In this document: piece after piece, positions 20,567 through 48,800 of the stretch
Position numbering within the stretch: position 1 is the first letter of the stretch
How the letters are laid out: every line of letters begins with the position of its first letter
Source of the DNA: Gavia stellata
Lineage: Eukaryota; Chordata; Aves; Gaviiformes; Gaviidae
Reading direction: 5' to 3'
NCBI RefSeq assembly: GCF_030936135.1
Contig: NC_082613.1
Coordinates: 2,976,001-3,040,000 of the forward strand
Length of the DNA: 64,000 nt
The notes under the pieces: generated by a model
The model's input: only the letters and a program-made list of their open reading frames with translations
Told to the model about the DNA's origin: nothing
Database searches by the model: none
Made by a program: the position numbers and the translations under genes

Positions 20567-20769
20567 TCAGGACATGAAAGTCCTCACACTTCCCCGGATG
20601 ACTGCTCTGCAGATAGGACACAATCTCAAATTGGAGGCACATTCTCCACAAGCTACCAGGTGGCCACAAGGAACAAACACAACAGACACATCTCTGTCCA
20701 TGCACACTTTGCACATCCTCTCCTCTTGCAGGCGTCGGAGCTGTTCTTCTGTGCTCATCCGAGACTCAT
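20567..20769 (-). CDS. BIRC7: BIRC7 exon: RING finger and stop
   Basis: Acceptor is TTTTTTTGGTAAAG at 20770. The exon encodes [17 protein letters not shown] followed by the RING with ligands C366, C369, C381, H383, C387, C390, C397 and C400. It ends V-R-T-F-M-S and TGA at 20567-20569. The R-R-L-Q-E-E-R helix just before the RING is typical of cIAP, XIAP and livin. Confidence 0.96.
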
Positions 20770-23700
20770 CTTTACCAAAAAAAGAAAGAAAAAAAGCCCA
20801 AACTGTTATAATACTAATAGCTCCAGAGTGCCAGTCCTGTCATTTTAGGAAGTCACACTGCAACTTGCTCATAATTTTATTCAGAGACTGACTGTGAAGA
20901 TGGCAAAAGTACCTCTCCAGCAAATTTCATTTAAGCTGAAAAACTACAGCTATTATAGACTCTGGCTTATCTACACAAGGTTCAGCATATCTACACATGC
21001 TGGACTGAGCAGGTACAGAGATCAACATCTCTTTACAGTAATATGCAATTTATCCCTGATAAACCAAATTTTTTGGGTAACAGTCTGCTTCACAGTGGAA
21101 CTCCAATTCCTGAATAAGGGTCTCTATGTTCTGTTACTATTCAATCTAGCACACATTCCCCTTCAGGATTAAAAAAAGAATGAATACAATGACCACTGAT
21201 ACCATTACTATAAAAACCATCCCAAATATGCCTAGGCTCAATTTCACCACCACTGTCAGCCCAGTGCACCTGATTCCTTTTGTTGCACAGATCGCATTTC
21301 TTCTCTTGAACTTGATGTTTCAGTCTCTCTCTGAACAGCATCTGTATAACCAGGAAAGAAGATAGCGTTAAATGCTACCCTTTTCCTCCCTCTTCAGACA
21401 GTGCTGTTTAAAAATATGAGATATCCTGGATTTCAGTAGCCTTAGGTCAAACACCTCTTTATTCTGCTGTTAACTTCACACAGTCAGCCTAGCGAAGCTG
21501 ATGTTCTCTGTGGTGCTTTAGTCACTATGTATGTTAACCTCCCTACCAAGACATGTCCACATCACATTCTCTCCTCAGCAAAGTTGGTTTATCTATCAGA
21601 CAGGAGCCATCAGCTGCTCATTCCTGCTCCTGTGCTACTGTTTAATCACACTTTTGGTTTTGTGGAATTTTTTTTTTTGCCTTGGCTAAAGAAACGGCAG
21701 ATCATGATACAGAGACAGGAGCTTTGGAAAGCAGGCTTGCTACCAGAGAAAGCCTGTGCAGAACTGCATCTTCAAACAAACTTCACTTGGCAAACAGACT
21801 CCACAAAACAGATAACACAAGACAGACATAGATAAGTTAAGGAGAATATATATTATCCAAACAAACAAGAAGTATGGCTATTTCTGATCAAGTCATTGAT
21901 TCAATTTTAAATAGGCTTGGAGCACTCATCCATCCTAAAAGCCTTGCTTCAGACAACTGCCTCTGTCTGCATCAGATGCAAATTTGTGCACAAGCCTCCG
22001 CATTGTGCAGCTGTCTGCTACTGCAGGTCTATGGGCAGCAGAAAATATTGATGATATCTACACCATAGCCAACTGGAGGCAGATATAGTTACTGATACCC
22101 CAGTAATCACAGCTCCTTCAGGTTTCTTTAAACCAAAACCTTATTCTTCAGCCTCCCAAACACAGGCAGGCTTGGGTACATTACTACTCTTAATTCCAGC
22201 CTAGGAAGAGAGAAGGCAGACCCGCAAGACACTCGCAACAGTGCTCAAGATGAAGTGAATAAGAGGTTAAACATCCACCAAGAACGTGGGTGTGCGAGTC
22301 AGGCATACCTCTGCTCTCCTCTGCACTGCTGCTCTCTTCCCAGTCTGGCTGAAGTAGATCAGAAATCAGTTCAGACTCAGAAAGGTAGAAAGTCCCAGTC
22401 AGTATGTATTTATTCTCTACCAGGTAAGCCACCCAGGTGGGGTCAAAGCCCATCTGCAGGACATTCTGCACTATGGTAAACTGATCCAGAGAAGGAAGAG
22501 CCTGCAATTCCCAGTTCCTCAGAGGATCTGTAAAGCAGTGAGCAGATACTTTACCAAAAAGGCAGAACTCTGGGCAAAAAGTACACCACTCCCTGAAGCT
22601 GTTACATATAAAATGGCATTAATATATTCTAGAACATTCCTCAAGCTACCTATATAGCTATATCAACATCCAGATTCACAGTTCTTGTGAATTATGATTG
22701 GAAGTAAGTCATCAAAAGCAATTTCATAGAAGCCAAGACACTAATTTTGGATGGTTTATTCTACTCTATCAGTGAACCAAGACTCCGTGTTTGGCCCCAG
22801 TCCAGAATCCTTATCTTTGTTTTCACATCCCAGAACAGAAGTATCAAAACTGCTTTCATGAAGATCAAATGGAACATCCAACTGAAGTCTCTCCAAGTCT
22901 CTCCTACTTCATAATCTAGCTCAACCATTCATCAGTAAAGACAGAAGCAGGAAATTCAGCTGGCAGCCCGTTCAAAAGCTTAAGTCTTTCTTAAGCTCAT
23001 CCTATCGGATAGGGTCTTCAAGAGAACATGAAAAAAAAAAAAATCAGTCTTCCACAATTATGGGAGCCAAATTTCACCTACTTAAATTTCCAGGAGCAAC
23101 TGACAAATGGGAAGAGATCCCCAGGATCCACACTTTAATGAACAACTAGACCTACAGCTGTTCTCTGGTCTCCTATCAAGTACGTTTAAAATGCTGTAGG
23201 CTGAAAGACTCTTCAGACAGACAACATCAAGAGCATGGACAAGTCAAAGGAAGGTTAGGCAAGCGCCCAAAAGCCACATGATTAGTCAGACTAGCTAAAT
23301 GTCTCTGGTCTAGACTAAGGTCACAAAAGAGCAAGCAATTTTGCTTCTTGTGCTAGAGACCATTTCCTAAAAATAAAGTGAAACAGCTTCTAGAATATCA
23401 ATTCATCTCTCAAACACCGTGTGTACAGAGTGCACGGGAGCTGGGGTGGGGGTAGAAGCAAGACTACACCACTCTCAACAGAAGACAAAACACCATGTAA
23501 TTATAGCACTGACCTTGGGAAGCAGAGAAATCTTGTTCGGTATGATCCCAGGAATCTCTCTGAAAACATCACAAGAGAGTCACAAAAGAGAAACGTGTTC
23601 AAAACTCCCCCTATCTACCAAACCCCCCATCTGCTATACACAAAATATTTGTGACTCACTGGAGATAGCAGAGTGCTAGAAAAGGACTCCTGAACACCGC

Positions 23701-26700
23701 TAACAAATTCTCTCCCCCTTGACCGCAATAAAAATTCACACCTATAAGCAAAAAGATTTAAATACATTAGTACAGGATCTCTCAAGTGAAAGCAGCAGTA
23801 GTTTGAACTTTAGAAGCAAAGGGTGCTATCCAGTTATGAGCAAACCGCTGTATTCATTAAAGAGGGAGTAACATGGTCTTTTTCCCCCTCCTCCCAGCAT
23901 GAAGAGCAACAACAAGATGCTCATGATCCCCTCCCTTAATTCAGTCTTTGCATTTGGCCCAAGATGAGCTCAGTTGAAACGTCCTTTGGAACAGATCACA
24001 GGAAGTGTGATAATAGACCAGTTCACAGAAAAACACAAGAACTGCTGCAGAAAAAACAAGGTTTACAGTATCTCCCTTTTTGTGCTTCAGAGTAGTAGAA
24101 ACCAAAGCTGTTCTTTGATGTCAAAGAAAGTGATTTTGAAGTTCACCATCTAAAAGTTCAATTAAGTCAAATTAGAAAATCTCAGCTCTGAACTGTGCCA
24201 TTCTACCAGAGCTTGAACATTTGATTTTGCTTTTCAAGTGAGAGGGTCTAAATACTTAGGCTTTGTCACTTCAATTTTACAGTTCTTTTTTAAAAACTAG
24301 TTACAGCTTAGACAACCATCATCCAGTAGGTTTCATCATTAACACAGAGCAGTCCAGTGATAAATCTGCCTTTGGAATAGAAGATGTGACAATGCCTGAG
24401 AAGAAGCCTAAAGGGACTGAAGCTGACTGTCCTGGAGTCAGCAAACTATTGTAGAACATAACATATGCAGAAAGACACCAGACACACATCATCTCCTTTT
24501 TGGGGAGGGTGGAAAGGGAGAAACAGGAGAGGAGAGGCAGTTGAAGATATGACAATTAGGTGTTCAGGGCAATCTTTGGTTCTTCCTCATGTGAGGGGGG
24601 AGTAGGAAGAAGGCACTTTTGGAAGACAGTACAGACCAAGTGGCCGACCTAGAAACAGGTTTTCTCTCTTGACCCACTACTAGGATTTGAAGTCGGTCCC
24701 TTGCTGTGCAACTTTGACCTTGAGGATTCAGAACCTCTCTCTTGAAATTTCAGGGATTTCCAGAAGGTCACAGACTATTACAACAGTTTATGCAGTTAAA
24801 CATGATTGAACATACCTGACTAGATTTTTGCCTGCTCTAGCTAGGTAGAAAAAAATCTAGAACTAAGCTAATAACAGAGCCTAGAAGCAGCGCTTATTAC
24901 CAGTACACCTGCAACTCATTTGTCTCTCAACTGGGGGTACTTCTATCTTATGAAAGAAGAAGTCAGTGTGGAATGCACAGCATATCTTTTGGTCTTGGTA
25001 CGAGGGACATTTGTCAACCAAGACTCACTTACCCCGGATACCATTTGGCATGTTCCCTCCAAGGATCATCTCCAAACGACCAGTTCCTCACACCTCCATC
25101 ACAGTAAAAACACCTCACTACATCACCTTGTCCTGAAAAAGACATCAAGAGATTATCTGACATCTGAGACACTGTATGCTCTACTAGCCCCAGATGAGAA
25201 CCTGGGGAGAGATTCAGCACAAAACACATGTCACCAGACAGAACAGATGAGCACATGACAATTTACCAACACTGTGCAAGTTGTATAGGGGCATGAAATC
25301 TGACGAGAGTTTGAACTCCCAGAGCTGTGGCTGGTTGAGATGATTCCAGAAATGGGTCACAAGCTAACACGCAGCATGTACGTGAGCACCATAGCTCCCA
25401 TGTATGCACATACCTATCCAATCCCCTCTTGCCTGCATTCAGAATCGAGCTGTAATAATTATACCTAAAAAACATACTTTGTTTCCTAACCACAATCTGC
25501 CATAACCAGCAGCAGGCACAGTCAGACAATGAGCACAGCTTCCATCTCATAGGCATAAGAATTTGCCACAACATAGTCCCAGGCTACACGTCCTTCTGTG
25601 CTTCTCTTCACAGAAATCATGGGGGGGGAATAAATCAAAGCCAAACACACTTAAGAAGAACTGCCTACAAATGGCCTGCCCTAAGGGCAATGAAACAACA
25701 TCAGTAAAGGCTGCCAGTGAATTTGGGTCGGAGACATGATCTTCCAAACACTCTTGTGTTAGAGCACTGTTTGGTTTAACTTGAGTGCTCAGTTCCAGAG
25801 TTCTCCTGCTCAAGCAACTGCAGGGGAGTGCCATGTCAGACTGCTGCTGCCTAATGAGTCCCCAAAGGAAGTCTCTGTGCTGGGTTCTGAAACAGCTGCT
25901 CTGCAAGTGAAAAAAAAAAATCAAGTCCAACACAAAACACATGGTTTTCAGCTGCAGACACTGCTTTAGAGTTTATTCTGTTTTCCTGGCCAGGCTGGTC
26001 TTGTGTGCCTTAAATTAATAAAAACACAAAAGCAGCAGATGAGCAAACACACCTATAATGCTCTTCCATTTAGGCATACATGCTGTTTAGCCCCTGCTAC
26101 GTGCTCCAAGTAGACAGGTACAGATTCTTAGTGTTAACTGGATTTATAGCAAGATCCAGGTTATGCTGTTTGAGTGAAAGTCTTGCAGAAGTAGAGGCAT
26201 ACTAGCAAACTAAGCAGTCAGTTCCTCTAACTCAAGCTAAAAGAACAGAACATCAGTTATTTAGACAGACTTTACTACATGCATGTCATTCACTATGTTG
26301 CATCTCAGATTTTTTCCAGCTATCACAACATTTAAGGCTGTTTTTTTCCCCATTCCCATATTTACCAACAAATAGTACTTAATTAAGTGGAGAAAGGGGC
26401 AATTTAATTTTACTTCAACAGTGAGAGAATGAGGCATTCAGGATGCACGGGTTTGTTTCTTCCAAGAGACCTTTAGTTTATGGACCCTGCCTGTCACTTC
26501 CTTCCATGCCCCAGTTTAATGTGCAAACACAAAACAAATAGATTCCTTCATATGGAAGAAGTCACACTTGTAACACACAGAAATATCACTACATTATTAG
26601 CTTTCAAAAACCGGAAGGATCCCCCCAATATTTAATTACAGTCCAGCATTAACATACTGTAAATATTTCCCCTGACTGGTCAATCTGGGAAGAAGTACTT

Positions 26701-27835
26701 CAAACCTATTATCTAACCAACAAAGCCTTCAAGGGGAAACAATGAGGTTATATTGATATTCACATGGATATGTTAACAAGAAATACTGTATATTTTCCTC
26801 AAAAAAGTATATTTTTTTGTTTCTGTATTACAAGTCCAGGGTTCTTATGGCAAAAAGCCACAGTGACAGCCAAATGGGCTGACCACCTACAGGTTTCACA
26901 CTCAGATTTGTTTTTTCAGAAGAGAAGGCTTCAGTGCAAGACAGAGCTTATACAAAACACAACATGCCAAGTAAGGGCCACAAGTCCTTTTAGAAGTGCA
27001 ACTAATAGATAAGCTCAATGGATCTTAAAGCACCCACTTTTCTGCCAGCAAAACATCTGTTTAAAACATGTCACTTTTTCCACTCCTGCTGGTAAGGGAA
27101 TTGACTTACTCGTGGATCCTTCAGTACCCAAACAGAAGTTAACATAGAAGTGAATTCTGCACAAGCAGCAAGTGAAACAGCACAGGCTGAAGGAAGGATG
27201 TGGTTTCTAACTACACTACACATACTTGCAAGTCTTTGTGCAAGCAACAAAACATAGTGACACCTTCAAAAATTAACTTCAGTAAGAGTTAAAAACATTT
27301 CCCCGGAGTACCTACCTGTGTAAAAGAATCCTGCTCTAGCCAATCGCTCAGGATGCACGTCAGTGTATGGCGGCCAGTTCTGGAAGGTTGATAGTCTCAT
27401 CTCCTCTGTTACCATCTCTGGGTATTCTGGTTCGTTGGGCAGGGCTGTCTCTTCACTGTCTATCCCCTGCAAAAGACTGAGGAACTGCCCATCCACAGTG
27501 TCAAAGATTTCCTGAAGAGGAAGCATCTCTTGGTTCCCAACATCCTCACCACAAATGAATTTACAGGAAGGGAAGAACTTCAGGTGCTCTGCTATCGGGC
27601 AATCACCAGGTCCCCAGTCCTTCAGGACACCACCGCAGCAGAAACACTGTACTTCATCTCTTGGACCCACAAAGAAAAAGCCAGCCTTGACCAAATCTCG
27701 GGCAGACACAGGTGAGGTGCCTGGCCATTGCTGAAAAGTCCTCAGTCTTCTTGCTTCATTCCTCATGCTGGACTCAAACAGCTCACAGCGAGCGGCCCTG
27801 AGCTCAATCTCCTCTTCTGGTGTCACGTCCCCCAT
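20567..27835 (-). CDS. BIRC7: BIRC7 (livin/ML-IAP), BIR-BIR-UBA-RING inhibitor of apoptosis
   Basis: Complete coding region, complement(join(20567..20769,21270..21341,22309..22527,23514..23559,23660..23741,25033..25132,27316..27835)), 413 aa with all phases consistent. IAP proteins bind caspases and IBM-bearing proteins such as SMAC, and ubiquitinate partners through the RING. Visible domains: BIR1 at about 29-95 (Zn ligands C64, C67, H84, C91); linker with D-T-V-D-G at 112-116; BIR2 at about 146-215 (C181, C184, H201, C208, with the IBM-pocket pattern D-D-P-W-R-E-H); a UBA-like domain at about 264-308 with its M-G-F motif at 275-277; C3HC4 RING at 366-400; terminus V-R-T-F-M-S. Family evidence for BIRC7 rather than XIAP: synteny with NKAIN4 and YTHDF1, two rather than three BIRs, [11 protein letters not shown] after BIR2, and the linker V-D-G-Q shared with human livin (from memory). 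Start chosen at 27835: after the predicted upstream splice the frame has a stop (TAA) just before it. The exon model is inferred without transcripts. Confidence 0.93.
20770..21269 (-). other. BIRC7: BIRC7 intron (500 nt)
   Basis: Donor GTGCAC on the - strand is weak for a vertebrate 5' splice site; the acceptor is T-rich. No other feature seen. Confidence 0.75.
21270..21341 (-). CDS. BIRC7: BIRC7 exon: UBA-RING linker (24 codons)
   Basis: A 72-nt exon after a good acceptor (TTCTTTCCTGGTTATACAG). It encodes [18 protein letters not shown], a charged, serine-rich linker. Both ends are in phase 1, so including or skipping it keeps the frame. The S-R-E-E-M-R-S-V-Q part loosely resembles the human livin linker P-R-R-E-V-Q-S. 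The weak donor makes this exon less certain than the others. Confidence 0.72.
21342..22308 (-). other. BIRC7: BIRC7 intron
   Basis: About 970 nt from donor GTATGC to acceptor TATACAG on the - strand. Nothing else recognised. Confidence 0.8.
22309..22527 (-). CDS. BIRC7: BIRC7 exon: UBA-like domain
   Basis: A 219-nt exon, acceptor CTGCTTTACAG, donor AG|GTATGC. It encodes residues 250-322. The core ([13 protein letters not shown], then [19 protein letters not shown]) follows the three-helix UBA pattern of XIAP and cIAPs, including the M-G-F loop that contacts ubiquitin. Human BIRC7 has no UBA. Phase 1 at both ends makes it skippable in frame. Confidence 0.9.
22528..23513 (-). other. BIRC7: BIRC7 intron
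   Basis: About 990 nt, donor GTCAGT, acceptor TTTACAG on the - strand. Nothing else recognised. Confidence 0.8.
23514..23559 (-). CDS. BIRC7: BIRC7 46-nt micro-exon
   Basis: Acceptor TTGTGATGTTTTCAG, donor AAG|GTCAGT. Encodes [15 protein letters not shown] plus one base. It is required to connect the neighbouring exons, since the previous exon ends in phase 0 and the UBA exon needs one incoming base. Its S-W-D matches the S-W-D-P-W-E segment at the same place in human livin. Confidence 0.85.
23660..23741 (-). CDS. BIRC7: BIRC7 exon: end of BIR2
   Basis: An 82-nt exon (acceptor CTTTTTGCTTATAG, donor CCA|GTGAGT), separated from the micro-exon by an intron of only 100 nt. It supplies the fourth zinc ligand C208, then [12 protein letters not shown], closely matching human livin (C-Q-F-L-L-R-S-K-G-R-D-F-V). 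Confidence 0.93.
23742..25032 (-). other. BIRC7: BIRC7 intron
   Basis: About 1.3 kb from donor GTAAGT to the acceptor TTATAG on the - strand. No exon or repeat recognised inside. Confidence 0.8.
25033..25132 (-). CDS. BIRC7: BIRC7 exon: zinc centre of BIR2
   Basis: A 100-nt exon between TCTTTTTCAG and GTAAGT. It encodes [17 protein letters not shown] and then [12 protein letters not shown]. It carries ligands C181, C184 and H201 and the residues that in XIAP BIR3 and livin form the IBM-binding groove. Its length and phases match the equivalent XIAP exon as I recall it. Confidence 0.96.
25133..27315 (-). other. BIRC7: BIRC7 intron
   Basis: About 2.2 kb, donor GTAGGT, acceptor TTTTTCAG. It contains an unexplained long open segment on the - strand at 25547-25942 that includes a strong acceptor-like site (see findings). 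Confidence 0.8.
27316..27835 (-). CDS. BIRC7: BIRC7 first coding exon: BIR1, linker, start of BIR2
   Basis: The coding part starts with ATG at 27835-27833 (M-G-D-V-T-P-E-E-E) and ends at T-G before the donor GTAGGT. It encodes BIR1 (C-F-C-C-G-G...H-L-K-F-F-P-S-C), a linker with a DxVD-G motif, and the N-terminal helices of BIR2 ([10 protein letters not shown] to A-G-F-F-Y-T-G). The upstream part of the same exon starts at 27844 after CTCTCTTTCAG. Confidence 0.94.
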
Positions 27836-27844
27836 GTTCTCCTT

Positions 27845-27908
27845 CTGAAAGAGAGGGTGAGATAACCCAGAGCTGTCAGATGGATTCCCGGTGTCAGGCA
27901 GCACTCAC
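27845..27908 (-). other. BIRC7: Predicted 64-nt 5' UTR intron of BIRC7
   Basis: On the - strand it starts with a strong donor GTGAGT after CAGG, carries a branch-point-like CTGAC, and ends in the pyrimidine-rich CACCCTCTCTTTCAG. This would be an unusually short vertebrate intron. The alternative is that only the acceptor is used, paired with a distant donor. Confidence 0.5.
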
Positions 27909-38400: not shown

Positions 38401-39059
38401 ATTTCTGTTTCATCACAAAACATTTATGATTTGGTCAGGAGAACTCAAATAGATTTGAGGCAGATTGTCACGCAAGTTTCTGTATTATAATCAGTATATA
38501 CAATAAACTGCAGGACCTTGGGGAGGGGAGGAACTGTCTTTTTATTCTGTGCAGCACCTACAAACTGTATCTTGACCAAAGGATCCTAAGCAGAACCTAA
38601 AAACTATTAAGTAGCAACAGTTCTGGTCATTAGATATTCTACCAATTTAGGAAAAACAAACCAACCCACCCCAACCCACTATGTACAAGAAGCAGAAATA
38701 CAATCATTAATGAGGTAGAACTCAAATACTAGAAATAAAAGGGCATTGCTTTCATTTAATCTGCTTTCTCCTTAAGCCAGCCCTACCTCAGAATTAGAGA
38801 TTCAACTTTGGCATAAAGCAGCACTGAATGATTACAACTCAGGTGACTTATTCAATACTGCTTCATTTCCTGACCTTCCCTTGAAAAGGTGCATAGGTAA
38901 ATGCCAAGTCTCCCTGAAAACCACTGTCTACTCCTTGGCCCTGCTGAACTCAACGTACACTACGTGAAGGGGCCCAAGATTTCACCCAAGTTCTGCAAAA
39001 CAGCAGCTGGAAGGAAAATAAAATGAATTAACCTGATAAAAAACCACGATGGGAGCAGC
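35497..39059. other. Intergenic DNA upstream of YTHDF1
   Basis: Noncoding, AT-rich. It contains a small perfect inverted repeat at 35505-35529 next to the CR1 and a G11 run at 36524-36534. No gene recognised. Confidence 0.75.
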
Positions 39060-39324
39060 TGCAGCCAGCAGTTAGGGTGCTCGTGACCCTCTGGCAGAGG
39101 ATCCCAGCCGCCGCTACCACAGGCCCAAGGGCCGGACCGCACCGCCTGTGGGCTGGTGTGAGGGGAGACCGGCCTCCCTCAGCGCCTCGGGCCATGACTG
39201 AGCCGTGGCGGAGCCTACGGGCACGGGGCCTCCTTGCCCGTACAGTCCTGCACGGGCCCAGCGAGAAAAAGGGAAGGGGTCGGCGAAGAGAGAAGGCGCT
39301 GCCCGCCGCCCCGCGCCGCCCGCC

Positions 39325-39336
39325 CGCGCATGCGCG
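39325..39336. promoter_or_regulatory. YTHDF1: NRF1-type palindrome
   Basis: CGCGCATGCGCG is a perfect palindrome matching the NRF1 consensus (GCGCATGCGC core), common in CpG-island promoters. Confidence 0.6.
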
Positions 39337-39426
39337 GCAGGTGCCGCCGCGCTCCGCGCGCCTTCCTCCCCCTCCCCGCCTGCGCCCGGCCGTGCTTTCC
39401 CGGCGTGCCCCGCGCGCTCTCGGCGT

Positions 39427-39434
39427 TGACGTCA
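39427..39434. promoter_or_regulatory. YTHDF1: Full cAMP-response element
   Basis: TGACGTCA, the perfect palindromic CREB/ATF site, about 380 nt upstream of the YTHDF1 ATG. Confidence 0.6.
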
Positions 39435-39451
39435 CCGCAGCCCGGCGCCCG

Positions 39452-39461
39452 CCGCCATTGG
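39452..39461. promoter_or_regulatory. YTHDF1: YY1-like and inverted CCAAT element
   Basis: CCGCCATTGG combines the reverse complement of the YY1 core (ATGGCGG) with ATTGG, an inverted CCAAT box for NF-Y. It lies 18 nt beyond the CRE. Confidence 0.45.
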
Positions 39462-39811
39462 AGTTGGAGGCTCTGGTTCCATCCCTCGCTGCGGCCCGAC
39501 GGCGGCGGGCAGGCCCGGGCGGCGCGGCCCGGGGGCATGTGAAGAGACGGGGTCGGCAGGGTGAGGCGAGGCGCGGGACCGGTACCGGCCTACCGTCCGC
39601 TGGGACCCCTGAGGAGACGTCGAGCGGCGGCGCGCGCGCCAGCGGCTCCTTTCCCTCCCCCTCGGCCCCGGCCCCTTCCCCTCCCCGGCCGCCGCCTGAG
39701 GGGAGAGGCGCCGCCGCCGCCCCTGCGCCGGGCCCCGGAGCTCCGCGCCGAGCGGCCCTGCCTTCTCCCCCGGCCCTCTCTGCTGAACCACGGCGGCCCT
39801 GTACATGAATT

Positions 39812-39838
39812 ATGTCTGCCACAAGCGTTGACCCTCAG
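39812..39838 (+). CDS. YTHDF1: YTHDF1 exon 1 coding part
   Basis: Encodes M-S-A-T-S-V-D-P-Q and ends at CAG|GTAAGT. The ATG has A at -3. The exon continues upstream as 5' UTR in the CpG island. Confidence 0.96.
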
Positions 39839-42800
39839 GTAAGTGGCGAAGCGAAGCGCGGGGCCTGCCTCCTCCCCAGCCGGGGGCGGGGGGTTTCCCT
39901 TGCAGGCCGGTGCCTGCGTCTGGCCCGGGAGCGGCTTTTCCTCTCCCTCCCGGCTTCTTTGGAGCTTAATCTTCCTCGTTAGCTTCCCCTGTGGGCACAG
40001 CACGTTCCCGCTGCCTTTCGAGAGCCGTGGCCATTTCTAAGGAAGGCCAGTGCTGAATGATACGTGAAACATAGTCCTCAACCCCGGTTTAAACAAGCCC
40101 TGATAATTTGTTAGCCATTTTTATCAACCTCTTATCCATCCTCAAAAGCTGTGTGTTTTGCAGTACAATATAAGCGTTTTTCTAAAATGAACTTTATTTC
40201 CCCTCTCTCTTTTTTTTTTTTTTTTCCCCTTTACCCCATCATGTGGCACGGCTTCCCAGAGACCGAAAGGACAGGATAATAAAGGTGAGGATCATGCTCA
40301 GATCTCGTTGTTTAAATTGTTACTGTAACAGATGAATTATTCAGGTGCCTGTAGGTGAGCAGAAAGGTATTGCTTTTAGTCCCTCTGGATGACATCTGGA
40401 ACAAAAGAAGGTGTGCATTGTTTCAAAAATAACATAAACTGTTATTAGCATAAGCTTGCTTGCATCCCACTTAATGCTACTGAGTTTACAGTGGGAAGGA
40501 GTATCTGTTAGTACTAAACATAATAATACTCTCCATGTCCTTAAAATAAAGCAGATTTCTACATAAAGTCACAAGGATGTGCTTATTCAGTATGTATTTT
40601 TACATACTTTTGCATAGTCTTTTCCTGCCATATGAATACAATTGTGTTACTGGTCTGCTGTTGATTCATATACGTACTAGCTGTCATATATAAGCCTAAA
40701 AACCTATTCATTTAAGGAACTTAAATAAAAAATAGTTAACTTCTGATGCGATAATAAGCTTTTTATGATAACTCCCGTGCTTCATTTGAAATTAAATTTA
40801 ATAACAAGTCATCTAAGAGAATATTTTGATTATTACTGTGTTTGCTGATTAAGTGTGTAACTGTTTAGGCTTAGAAACTAGCAATATTCAACTCATAACT
40901 GCTTTTTAATATACCTAACCTGCCTTAAAAATCCAGCTACTTCTAGTTACAGAAATTTTGACACTATATATTTGTAAATACTCTTTGATCTCTACTCTCT
41001 CTGACAAACTTTGCAGAAATAGGCTGGTAAATTCCCAAACTTGTTTGCTAAACATCCTATTTGGTGTAGTGTTACTTTTAGTTTAGCTGTTCTGTGCAGT
41101 AGGTAAATAAAGCAACTATCACGTATGTGTTTGACCTTGTTTTCTTCAATTTAAAGCAAAAAATTAAGTTATTTGAAGTTATAAGAGTTTTGGGTTTGTA
41201 TATCTCTTAGTAATGGGGTTTGAATGCTTTTCACATGTTAACATGCTCAAGTTGGCCTTTGATTATGGCAGATACCTCTCTTTTACACATGAGAAAGCTG
41301 AGACTTAAATTCTCCTGAAAATGTCAGGATATCAACGCACTTAGCAGTCATTTTTTCGTAACTAGATGTAACCTCACCTCACCTTATTTTAGCCAACTTT
41401 ACTTAAGCAAGCAGTGAATAACACATGGTGGGAGAACTGTGAATTAGTTTCTGAGATTTCTAATTACGGACCGGAACAATGGATGTTGTTTCACAATATT
41501 TTTCACAAAATTCTTGTCAATAATTATTTGATTTTTTGTTCAGAGGTAATTCCCATGAGTTGTCTATTCACTCTTGACTGTGGAGTTTATTTATTTTTTA
41601 ATTTTTAAATTTACTTAAATTTAGTTTTATAAGCAGTAGTATAAAGAGAAGCTGCTTTGGGGAAAATTATCATCCCTTGGTCTTTTTATAAGTCTTCATG
41701 CTGTGAAGAAGAAATATGGCTTTTTATATAATAACATAGGGTGGAACTCTTTACAGAAATGCTACTAAGCAGTATTATAATATGTTGTAACCTTTTTCTT
41801 CTAGTACAAAATGGTTCGTTACATCAGAAGGATACAGTTCATGACAACGATTTTGAACCTTACCTTTCTGGGCAGTCAAATCAGGTTAGTGTATTTTTAA
41901 CTTAGATTTTTTTCTTAGGCATGCTGTTGGCACTCAATTCATAGGATTGTGTTGAGGGAACAAATTCCTTAAATAGAAATGGAAAAAGAAATGACTAGCA
42001 TATTGTGTTACTTGGTAATACAACTAGCATTTGTGCTCTCAAAGCTAATATTACTCTGCATATCCAGATGGCCACAAGTGAAAATGAAGTTAATGCTCCA
42101 ACTAGTGTCTGCTGATTGCTCCTCAAATTGCAGGTTATTGATATGGTTGGACTGTGACAGACTATTTCATCTTACAGTTCTTTCATAGATGAGTTACATG
42201 TGGGAGTCTGAGGGTTCTGCTTTTGGGCTCTCCTGATTTGTATAAACCTAGAAATTGGTGTAGTTGAAATTTGGTTTTGATGCTTCCTAGATAGCTTGTA
42301 GGGCTGTCCCACTTGCTTTTTACACTTAAGCAAATATTGTTCTTTTGTGTCCTTTGAAACATCTTAAGAATTAAAAATGTGTTGTTTTAAGAGTAAGGCA
42401 CTGACTGTAATGTAAACTCTCAACATAATCCAGTTCATTATAATGTATGTTAAATCAACATCCATGACTTAAATACCATTATAATTGAAAATGCCTTTTA
42501 ACTGAAGTAATTTTTGACTTAATATTCAGATCTTTAAAGTGAACAAAATGTGTAGAAACTGGAGATGCAAAAAGTTTTCTTTCATAAATATAAAATACCA
42601 TTTCAGAGAGAGACCAACCAAGGTACATTATTACTTCTTGGCAGAAAGGCTAAGTGTTAATGTTTTAAAAGGGAAACTTATAATTCAGCCTGAAGCTGAT
42701 AGATGCCACTGTTAATATTGGTGACATCACTGAACTTGCTTGCAAAAGAAAATTATACTACATGCTTAAAAAAAGGCATATAATGTGCTGTTCTGTTTCA

Positions 42801-45800: not shown

Positions 45801-48800
45801 GCATATATCGCATGTCATATTTGCATATATTTGTCTCTAGTATACCAGTCCCCTTAATTTCCATTTGTAGTTCTTAGGTCTACTTACATACGTAAACTTG
45901 CTTCTTAGCGTGTCCTGTCTATGTCAGAAGTAGCCTTTGCATGTTTTACCACTTCAGGTATGTTTTGCTTGTTGGGGACTGTTGGCCCCTCAAAACAATT
46001 CCATAACGAGGACTGTAACCATATTTCTGTTATATATGTTGTCATGTTAAAGTAATTTCATCTAAAACTTCTCCCATGTAGTGATCCAGAAATACTAAAT
46101 ATCCTTGGTTCTGTGAGACACAAAATACTTTGTTATATAAGTTTCTTGAAATATTTTGGGGTATTGGTAGATTAAATAATTCTAGAAGCTGCTGGTAAAT
46201 ACCCTTAGTAATGTAAATAAGCTTACATGGTTTCAAAATCTCAAGTACTAACCTCATTGTGAGCCACTAGTCCTCGGGTGTATTATAAATACCCAGATAC
46301 TGCATTTTAGCCCTGAATCTTTCTTGGAGTATGAACTAAGATTTGTAATTGTAAATTAAATTACCTTGTCTCTGTTGTTCTTTTCTATTTGGTGATGAGC
46401 AGTGTTGTGGCTGTTTATAAGTGAAGAGGAGTTTTATATCTGAAGTTACCTTTTTTTTCTCTTTAACAGAACAGTAGCTATCCATCAATGACTGATCCTT
46501 ATCTGTCCAGTTATTATCCACCATCTATTGGGTTCCCCTATTCTCTCAGTGAAGCACCATGGTCTACAGGAGGAGATCCTCCTATCCCGTATCTCACCAC
46601 CTATGGACAGCTCAGTAATGGAGATCATCATTTTATGCACGATGCTGTTTTTGGACAGCCTGGGGGTCTGGGAAATAACATCTATCAACATCGGTTTAAC
46701 TTTTTCCCTGAAAATCCTGCCTTCTCAGCTTGGGGCACAAGTGGATCCCAAGGACAGCAGACTCAAAGTTCAGCATATGGGAGCAGTTACAGCTACCCAC
46801 CTAGTTCACTGGGCGGTACCATTGTGGATGGACAAACAGGATTTCATAATGATACATTAAATAAAGCTCCTGGAATGAACAGTATTGAACAGGGAATGGT
46901 TGGACTTAAGATTGGTGGAGATGTTACAACTTCTGCGGTGAAAACAGTAGGTTCTGTTGTCAACAGTGCCGGGATGACAGGTGCCCTCTCTGGTAATGGG
47001 GGATCTAATGTAAACTTGCCAGTATCTAAACCAACTTCTTGGGCTGCTATAGCTAGCAAGCCTGCAAAACCACAGCCTAAAATGAAAACAAAAACTGGAC
47101 CTGTAATTGGAGGAGCATTGCCTCCTCCACCTATAAAGCATAATATGGACATAGGTACTTGGGACAATAAGGGTCCTGTGGCAAAAGTTCCTGCCCCCCA
47201 ACAGATACCTTCTCCTCAGTCTGTCCCACAGCCACAGCAACAAATTGTTCAGCCTGTTCCAACTCAACCTCCTCCATTGACTCAGCCGCAGTATCAGACC
47301 CCTCAGCAGCCACCCCAAAATCGCTGGGTAGCTCCTCGCAACAGAAATGCAGCTTTTGGCCAAAGTGGAGGAACTGGTAACGACAGCAACTCAGCTGGCA
47401 GTACCCAGCCTAACCCTGTTCCAAGTGGCGAGTCCCATCCTGTTCTTGAAAAACTGAAAGCTGCTCACAGCTATAACCCTAAAGATTTTGAATGGAACCT
47501 TAAAAATGGACGTGTGTTCATAATAAAGAGCTATTCTGAGGATGATATTCATCGTTCCATTAAGTATTCTATTTGGTGTAGTACGGAACATGGCAACAAA
47601 CGCCTGGACAGTGCTTTTCGGTCCATGAATAGCAAAGGTCCAGTCTACTTGCTCTTCAGCGTCAATGGCAGTGGACACTTCTGTGGAGTAGCAGAGATGA
47701 AATCGCCTGTGGACTATGGCACCAGTGCGGGTGTCTGGTCTCAGGACAAGTGGAAGGGGAAATTTGATGTCAAGTGGATCTTTGTGAAGGATGTGCCCAA
47801 TAACCAGCTCCGACACATCAGGCTGGAGAACAATGACAACAAACCCGTTACAAACTCCCGTGATACACAGGAGGTGCCCTTAGAAAAAGCAAAACAAGTG
47901 CTTAAAATTATTGCTACTTACAAGCACACGACCTCCATCTTTGATGACTTTTCTCATTATGAAAAGCGCCAGGAAGAGGAGGAGGTGGTGCGGAAGGTAA
48001 ACTTATTAAAAAATTTATTTTATACACAGATATGGGGAAAATGAAATGTGAAGGCTGCTATGGTGGAAAAAATGTAAGTAGGAATTCAAAATGTTTATAA
48101 TATATCTCAACTTGATGGTTTTATGTGTTTAACAACACAAAAAACAAACATGCTTATTTGTCTGTAACAATGTCATAGCTAATGGGTTTCAAAGCAGAAA
48201 GCAAAGCAGTAATGCAGGTAAAGGACATTATGTTCAGTTTTTTGGAGTTTGATTTATTTTTTCTCTTAAAATTGTTAATAAACTAGAAAATAGTTTCTGT
48301 TTCAGAATTGGATTCTGCCAATGATTGCCAGTTAAGTTTCCTGCCTTATAAACATGGGGTGTTTTAACACTGTTTGACTGGAACTGGGCTATCAAAATTG
48401 GTACCTGTGTGGCATTTATAAGAGCAAGGAGCCTGATCTTGTTTGTTCAGTTGATCTCTCTAGAAAAGAAAGAGTTGCATAAAATTGCTGGAGTAGTGCT
48501 AGAAATATGCATTTCTGCTGCTGAAGTCACATGTATTATTATTTGGGTGAATAAAGGTTTTCAATTCCCAGGTCTAATCTGTCTAGTAATTCTTGGAAAG
48601 GGAAGTTTTGAGTGAAGATGTAGTAAGAGAAATTTGGGCAGTAACTGGGAAAGTGTATATATGCTGCGAAACTGGGAAACTTATATATGCTTTCATGGCT
48701 CCAAGACTACTGCAAGAGACATCTGTCCCTATCTGAGGTCCCCATGACCTCAGTTTCAAGAATGCCTTTCTCTAATTAGGCAGTCTAGAAGTAACGGACT

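Follow-up and report, generated by a model that had tools for sequence, protein, structure and literature searches.

A predicted BIRC7 (livin) gene of Gavia stellata with two BIRs, a UBA-like exon and a RING

Livin (BIRC7, ML-IAP) is a tumour target that is studied in its human form, with a single BIR, and the Xenopus egg protein xEIAP/XLX is presumably the frog BIRC7. A 2022 paper on chemical probes describes human BIRC7 as having one BIR and no UBA (PMC9204419), and the cleavage site of the human protein has been reported as DHVD52 (PMC1764470). XLX was in print by 2007 as a chain of 401 residues with two BIRs and a RING, and this part of the layout described below is therefore already published for the frog. 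It was characterised as a weak inhibitor of apoptosis that shows RING-dependent degradation and is cut by caspases at sites then unidentified, and the main text of that paper never uses the word UBA (PMC1854898). Literature titles and the opening parts of abstracts yielded no description of a UBA in bird or frog BIRC7; automated annotation may carry one. A table of gene copies lists one BIRC7 for chicken and two for frog (PMC7893105).

The window analysed here is a stretch of 64,000 nucleotides of Gavia stellata genomic DNA (NC_082613.1, positions 2,976,001 to 3,040,000 of the forward strand; contig C20 in the genome search described below). A BIRC7 coding span was predicted on its minus strand from 27835 to 20567, with edges that coincide with a start codon and a stop codon. 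The coding sequence of 1242 nt is carried by seven exons, all in phase with zero internal stops, and is predicted to encode 413 amino acids. All six introns have GT-AG boundaries. The seven-exon model, predicted from genomic DNA, is supported by its splice joins and open frame, and the gene is apparently intact. The predicted exons and domains are as follows.

27316-27835, minus strand: coding exon 1, with the start codon, BIR1, the linker and the N-terminal part of BIR2; aa 1-173, ending in phase 1; donor gtaggt
25033-25132, minus strand: coding exon 2, BIR2 core with C181, C184 and H201
23660-23741, minus strand: coding exon 3, C208 and the post-BIR2 stretch
23514-23559, minus strand: coding exon 4, short linker
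22309-22527, minus strand: coding exon 5, with the UBA-like stretch; symmetric (phase 1-1), 219 nt
21270-21341, minus strand: coding exon 6, 72 nt of linker; phase 1-1
20567-20769, minus strand: coding exon 7, RING and stop codon
27554-27763, minus strand: BIR1, aa 25-94; zinc ligands C64, C67, H84 and C91
27491-27502, minus strand: DTVD, putative caspase site, aa 112-115 in the BIR1-BIR2 linker; aligned with DHVD52 of human livin
22349-22474, minus strand: UBA-like core, aa 268-309, containing MGF
20609-20713, minus strand: RING C3HC4 core, aa 366-400

Pfam matches covered the BIR family in two stretches (E 1.4e-45) and a RING of the zf-C3HC4_3 family (E 3.5e-15), the latter C-terminal and of the IAP type. 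The zinc ligands of BIR2 are C181, C184, H201 and C208. Only one uninterrupted BIR zinc pattern occurs in the six frames of the window, that of BIR1, BIR2 being split by an intron; the pattern was seen in one of 60 base-shuffled windows. An earlier note on this DNA had described two BIRs, a UBA-like exon and a C3HC4 RING joined in phase, and this description is borne out, with the zinc ligands at the residues claimed and a UBA that scores weakly but above chance. Scans of the window for tRNA genes and Rfam families gave no matches, and no relatives were found in a set of prokaryote genome contigs, as expected for prokaryotes.

The predicted protein resembles human livin in its BIR3-class BIR, groove residues, RING, DxVD linker site and gene neighbours, and differs from it by an additional N-terminal BIR and the UBA-like exon. 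With XLX it shares two BIRs followed by a RING and a similar length (413 against 401 residues), whereas in the frog protein BIR2 is separated from the RING by a Ser-rich stretch that contains Ser-Pro repeats (PMC1854898). XIAP (BIRC4) likewise has a UBA before the RING and a BIR3-class domain with identical intron positions, preceded there by a BIR2-class domain that BIR1 may match, but it has three BIRs and a VVDxSD hook and is a separate gene in the same genome. BIRC2 and BIRC3 (cIAP) provide the closest RING, a BIR3-class domain with the same groove residues and a UBA; they differ in having three BIRs and a CARD, and in this genome they too are represented by a gene of their own.

The gene is most likely BIRC7, and not XIAP or BIRC2/3, because BIR2 matches human livin best, the neighbours are YTHDF1 and an NKAIN-family gene, and the genome holds separate XIAP and cIAP genes. 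Against single human domains BIR2 scored 133.5 bits with livin, 117.7 with cIAP1 BIR3 and 103.5 with XIAP BIR3. The previous assignment of this domain to the livin and XIAP-BIR3 class is upheld, as is, with the neighbours and the separate XIAP and cIAP genes, that of the gene to BIRC7. NAIP chains rank first for BIR2, at about 190 bits, solely through the adding up of three BIRs; the best single NAIP BIR reached 86.5. The genome searched comprised 1.32 Gb in 1185 contigs. By best match to human domains it contains an XIAP-type gene on C14 and a cIAP-type gene on C1, each with BIRs of its own type and a UBA followed by a RING, and no second BIRC7-like locus appeared among the best candidates scored in the genome BIR search. 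The neighbouring genes were placed as follows.

46467-48041, plus strand: YTHDF1, large exon, head-to-head with BIRC7; 419.9 bits with YTHDF1, 391.3 with YTHDF3 and 352.3 with YTHDF2
C20:2965907-2975501, plus strand: NKAIN-family matches, reaching to about 0.5 kb from the left edge of the window and oriented tail to tail with BIRC7

Of the three NKAIN-family matches, two contain an in-frame stop, possibly because the match reads through into an intron. Human chromosome 20 carries YTHDF1, BIRC7 and NKAIN4 arranged in the same way relative to one another. A sharp CpG island (positions 39000-40000, GC up to 0.82, CpG observed/expected near 1), probably the YTHDF1 promoter, lies in the interval from BIRC7 to the YTHDF1 coding exon.

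Trees were built from human and mouse domains together with paralogues from the same genome. BIR2 grouped with livin in the 22-row single-domain tree (support 81/76), with alternative groupings surviving the AU test (XIAP p-AU 0.26, cIAP 0.30; 0.21 and 0.21 in a smaller set of 15 rows). When BIR and RING were combined, the livin grouping had support of 78/86, and the p-AU was 0.30 for the XIAP alternative and 0.12 for the cIAP one. The single-domain trees are weakly informative, being compatible with BIRC7 but leaving the grouping unsettled. Intron positions, read by eye, are identical in BIR2, in the BIR3-class domains of XIAP and cIAP and in NAIP BIR2 of the same genome, where one intron, in phase 1, follows the G of the GFxxxG stretch and another, in phase 2, follows the WxP motif. 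That the gene is instead a duplicate of XIAP or BIRC2/3 agrees with the RING, which alone is closer to cIAP1 (107 bits) than to livin (93 bits), and is not rejected by the trees. We nevertheless consider a duplicate very improbable, given the livin-like BIR2, the BIRC7-type neighbours and the XIAP and cIAP genes located elsewhere. No CARD was present among the nine Pfam families matched up to E 1, and chicken BIRC7 has been placed in region C20G12 (PMC3817360), the window being on contig C20.

The class of the first BIR is less clear. The likeness to XIAP BIR2 that was noted earlier is possible: within the genome itself the BIR2 of its own XIAP is the nearest domain found (47%, 85.5 bits), but among human domains cIAP1 BIR3 scores above XIAP BIR2 (88.3 against 80.5 bits), and the same order was given by a second scoring (212 against 204), in which mouse NAIP BIR3 was level with cIAP1 BIR3. 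Grouping BIR1 exclusively with XIAP BIR2 had a p-AU of 0.08 in the 22-row set, and grouping it with all BIR2s 0.21. Placement with the type-I BIR1s was not rejected (p-AU 0.31 and 0.36). The 22-row tree joined BIR1 weakly to NAIP BIR1 (83/79); in the 15-row set these two fell on the type-I BIR1 side (71/90), but not once rows from the same genome were added. Groupings of BIR1 with cIAP1 BIR3 or NAIP BIR3 were tried and rejected in the 15-row set (p-AU 0.019 and 0.020).

NAIP (BIRC1) has a NACHT domain and is not known to carry a RING. It resembles the present gene in having a single exon with an unbroken BIR followed by the start of an intron-split BIR, in the weak tree grouping of the first BIR, and in similar residues on both sides of BIR1. 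For the residues preceding BIR1, a stretch picked post hoc from the alignment, 35 of 20000 shuffles were as good as the match to human NAIP and 70 of 20000 as good as that to mouse NAIP. Following the BIR, GRDVGN after XIAP BIR2 of the same genome is similar to CGEDVGN after BIRC7 BIR1 and to GKDVGN after mouse NAIP BIR1; human XIAP has GRNLN. The genome also contains a NAIP-like gene (C44:72003805-72009129) in which BIR1 contains an in-frame stop and a W in place of the first zinc cysteine, and plus-strand open frames at this locus and in the next 10 kb are all shorter than 160 aa. From its sequence this gene looks broken in Gavia stellata or in the assembly.

Structural work has assigned functional roles to the VVDxSD hook, to XIAP P325, G326, H343 and L344, and to the other positions of the IBM groove and of the BIRs. 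In the IBM groove BIR2 has W191, D195, E200 and W204, the set common to livin and cIAP1 BIR3, and it carries V188, R189 and N190 where livin has L, Q and S. BIR1 retains D78 and E83, the counterpart of E83 being missing from XIAP BIR1 and cIAP1 BIR1. The protein has two BIRs and no third, against three in XIAP of the same genome.

It had been proposed that avian livin may inhibit caspases more like XIAP; on such a reading BIR1 would block caspase-3/7 and BIR2 caspase-9 directly. Besides the nearness of XIAP BIR2 to BIR1 within the genome, such action is favoured by P206/G207, which are retained at the positions of XIAP P325/G326, and by QGIDSEET before BIR2, which partly aligns with the XIAP hook QVVDISDT at a score of 44, much of the match lying inside the BIR and without a shuffle control. 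This partial match, however, precedes the BIR3-class domain and not BIR1. No VVDxSD hook was found before BIR1, whereas XIAP of the same genome has VVDMSD before its BIR2. Q224/E225 stand at XIAP H343/L344, as in livin, and I81 and F87 in BIR1 replace W217 and H223 of XIAP BIR2. Frog XLX, moreover, inhibits apoptosis weakly (PMC1854898). The proposal was thus not borne out, and we regard direct XIAP-like inhibition as improbable. Most likely the protein is a ubiquitin ligase of the livin type, predicted to bind Smac-type N-termini well and to inhibit caspases weakly by direct contact, and it may itself be cut by caspases between its BIRs; the prediction agrees with the weak activity of XLX.

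The UBA-like exon was recognised by several searches. Pfam UBA_BIRC2-3 (PF21290) matched aa 268-309 with E 0.0037 and 17.7 bits, under the curated cut-off of 27.2, and phmmer gave E 2e-4 for the XIAP UBA (2kna) and E 0.005 for that of cIAP1. A profile of four IAP UBAs gave the protein 20.8 bits, compared with at most 7.1 bits in 2000 shuffles of the same protein, and the MGF stretch is retained. Single-sequence AlphaFold models of the exon showed three helices at low confidence (pLDDT 65.8 and 61.7), and fold searches by Foldseek and by VIA with the model of pLDDT 65.8 found no match. We take exon 5 as a real but divergent UBA-like exon, for which ubiquitin binding is plausible. It could instead be a degenerate UBA that does not bind ubiquitin, or be spliced out of most transcripts, as the score under the Pfam cut-off and the low-confidence models, one of them without a match, would allow; being symmetric (phase 1-1), the exon can be skipped or lost with the frame kept. 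We give this some weight but think it unlikely, since MGF is kept, the score is far above those of shuffles, and the exon is flanked by GT-AG splice sites.

The linker between the two BIRs can be aligned with human livin near its N-terminus, and the alignment continues into the BIR; 6 of 5000 shuffles did equally well. It spans a 12-residue stretch paired with WDHVDGQILGQL of human livin, and places DTVD (aa 112-115) at DHVD52. By the title of the study behind that site, human livin is said to be cut 'potentially' by a non-canonical caspase. A DxVD motif by itself is not rare: of 5000 shuffled versions of the protein, 529 contain one, so the case for a cleavage site rests on its aligned position. 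For the post-BIR2 stretch the match to human livin was not significant, since 442 of 5000 shuffles equalled it.

From the linker alignment, human livin appears to retain the old inter-BIR linker, preceded there by about 47 residues instead of a BIR. The simpler reading is that the human line underwent a loss and not a gain, and it is supported by the linker still visible in human livin, the two BIRs of frog XLX and the UBA followed by a RING in both XIAP and cIAP of the same genome. The earlier note had extended the loss of BIR1 and the UBA to mammals; the alignment with the DHVD52 region sustains this for the human line only. A more speculative scheme, which we consider rather unlikely, treats livin of birds and frogs as a switch with two states: the protein would stay full-length, BIR-BIR-UBA-RING, up to a caspase cut between the BIRs (at DTVD here), which would free a livin-like BIR-UBA-RING piece with a different activity. 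In the human line a form resembling the cut product would then have become fixed in the genome through loss of BIR1, and of the UBA as well, with the cut site retained as the N-terminal processing site DHVD52.

Taken as a whole, the locus is probably best explained as the sole BIRC7-like locus to emerge from the genome BIR search, encoding a BIR-BIR-UBA-RING ubiquitin ligase on an older plan; its binding, ligase activity, cleavage and later loss are steps that we infer. BIR2 would use an acidic and tryptophan groove of the livin and cIAP1-BIR3 type to bind Smac/DIABLO and processed caspase-9 at their exposed N-termini, and the RING would pass ubiquitin to the bound partner and to its own protein, with the UBA-like exon helping to retain ubiquitin chains as an extra ubiquitin contact. 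Cell death would be restrained mainly by tying up and degrading IAP antagonists and less by a strong direct block of caspases. Caspases may cut after D115 to give a BIR2-UBA-RING piece with a layout like that of human livin, and the line to human may have shed BIR1 together with the symmetric UBA exon. With an intact BIR-BIR-UBA-RING orthologue for comparison, human livin looks like a reduced version of an older, XIAP-like plan, and the N-terminal cleavage site of human livin would be explained as a leftover of the inter-BIR linker. The ancestral function of livin can be tested by comparing the bird, frog and human proteins.

Two further observations concern the transcripts of the gene. Since exons 5 and 6 each begin and end in phase 1, in-frame isoforms without the UBA or without the next linker are possible. 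Positions 27836-27850 contain tttcag, an acceptor-like stretch nine bases 5' of the start codon, which suggests a further, non-coding 5' exon.
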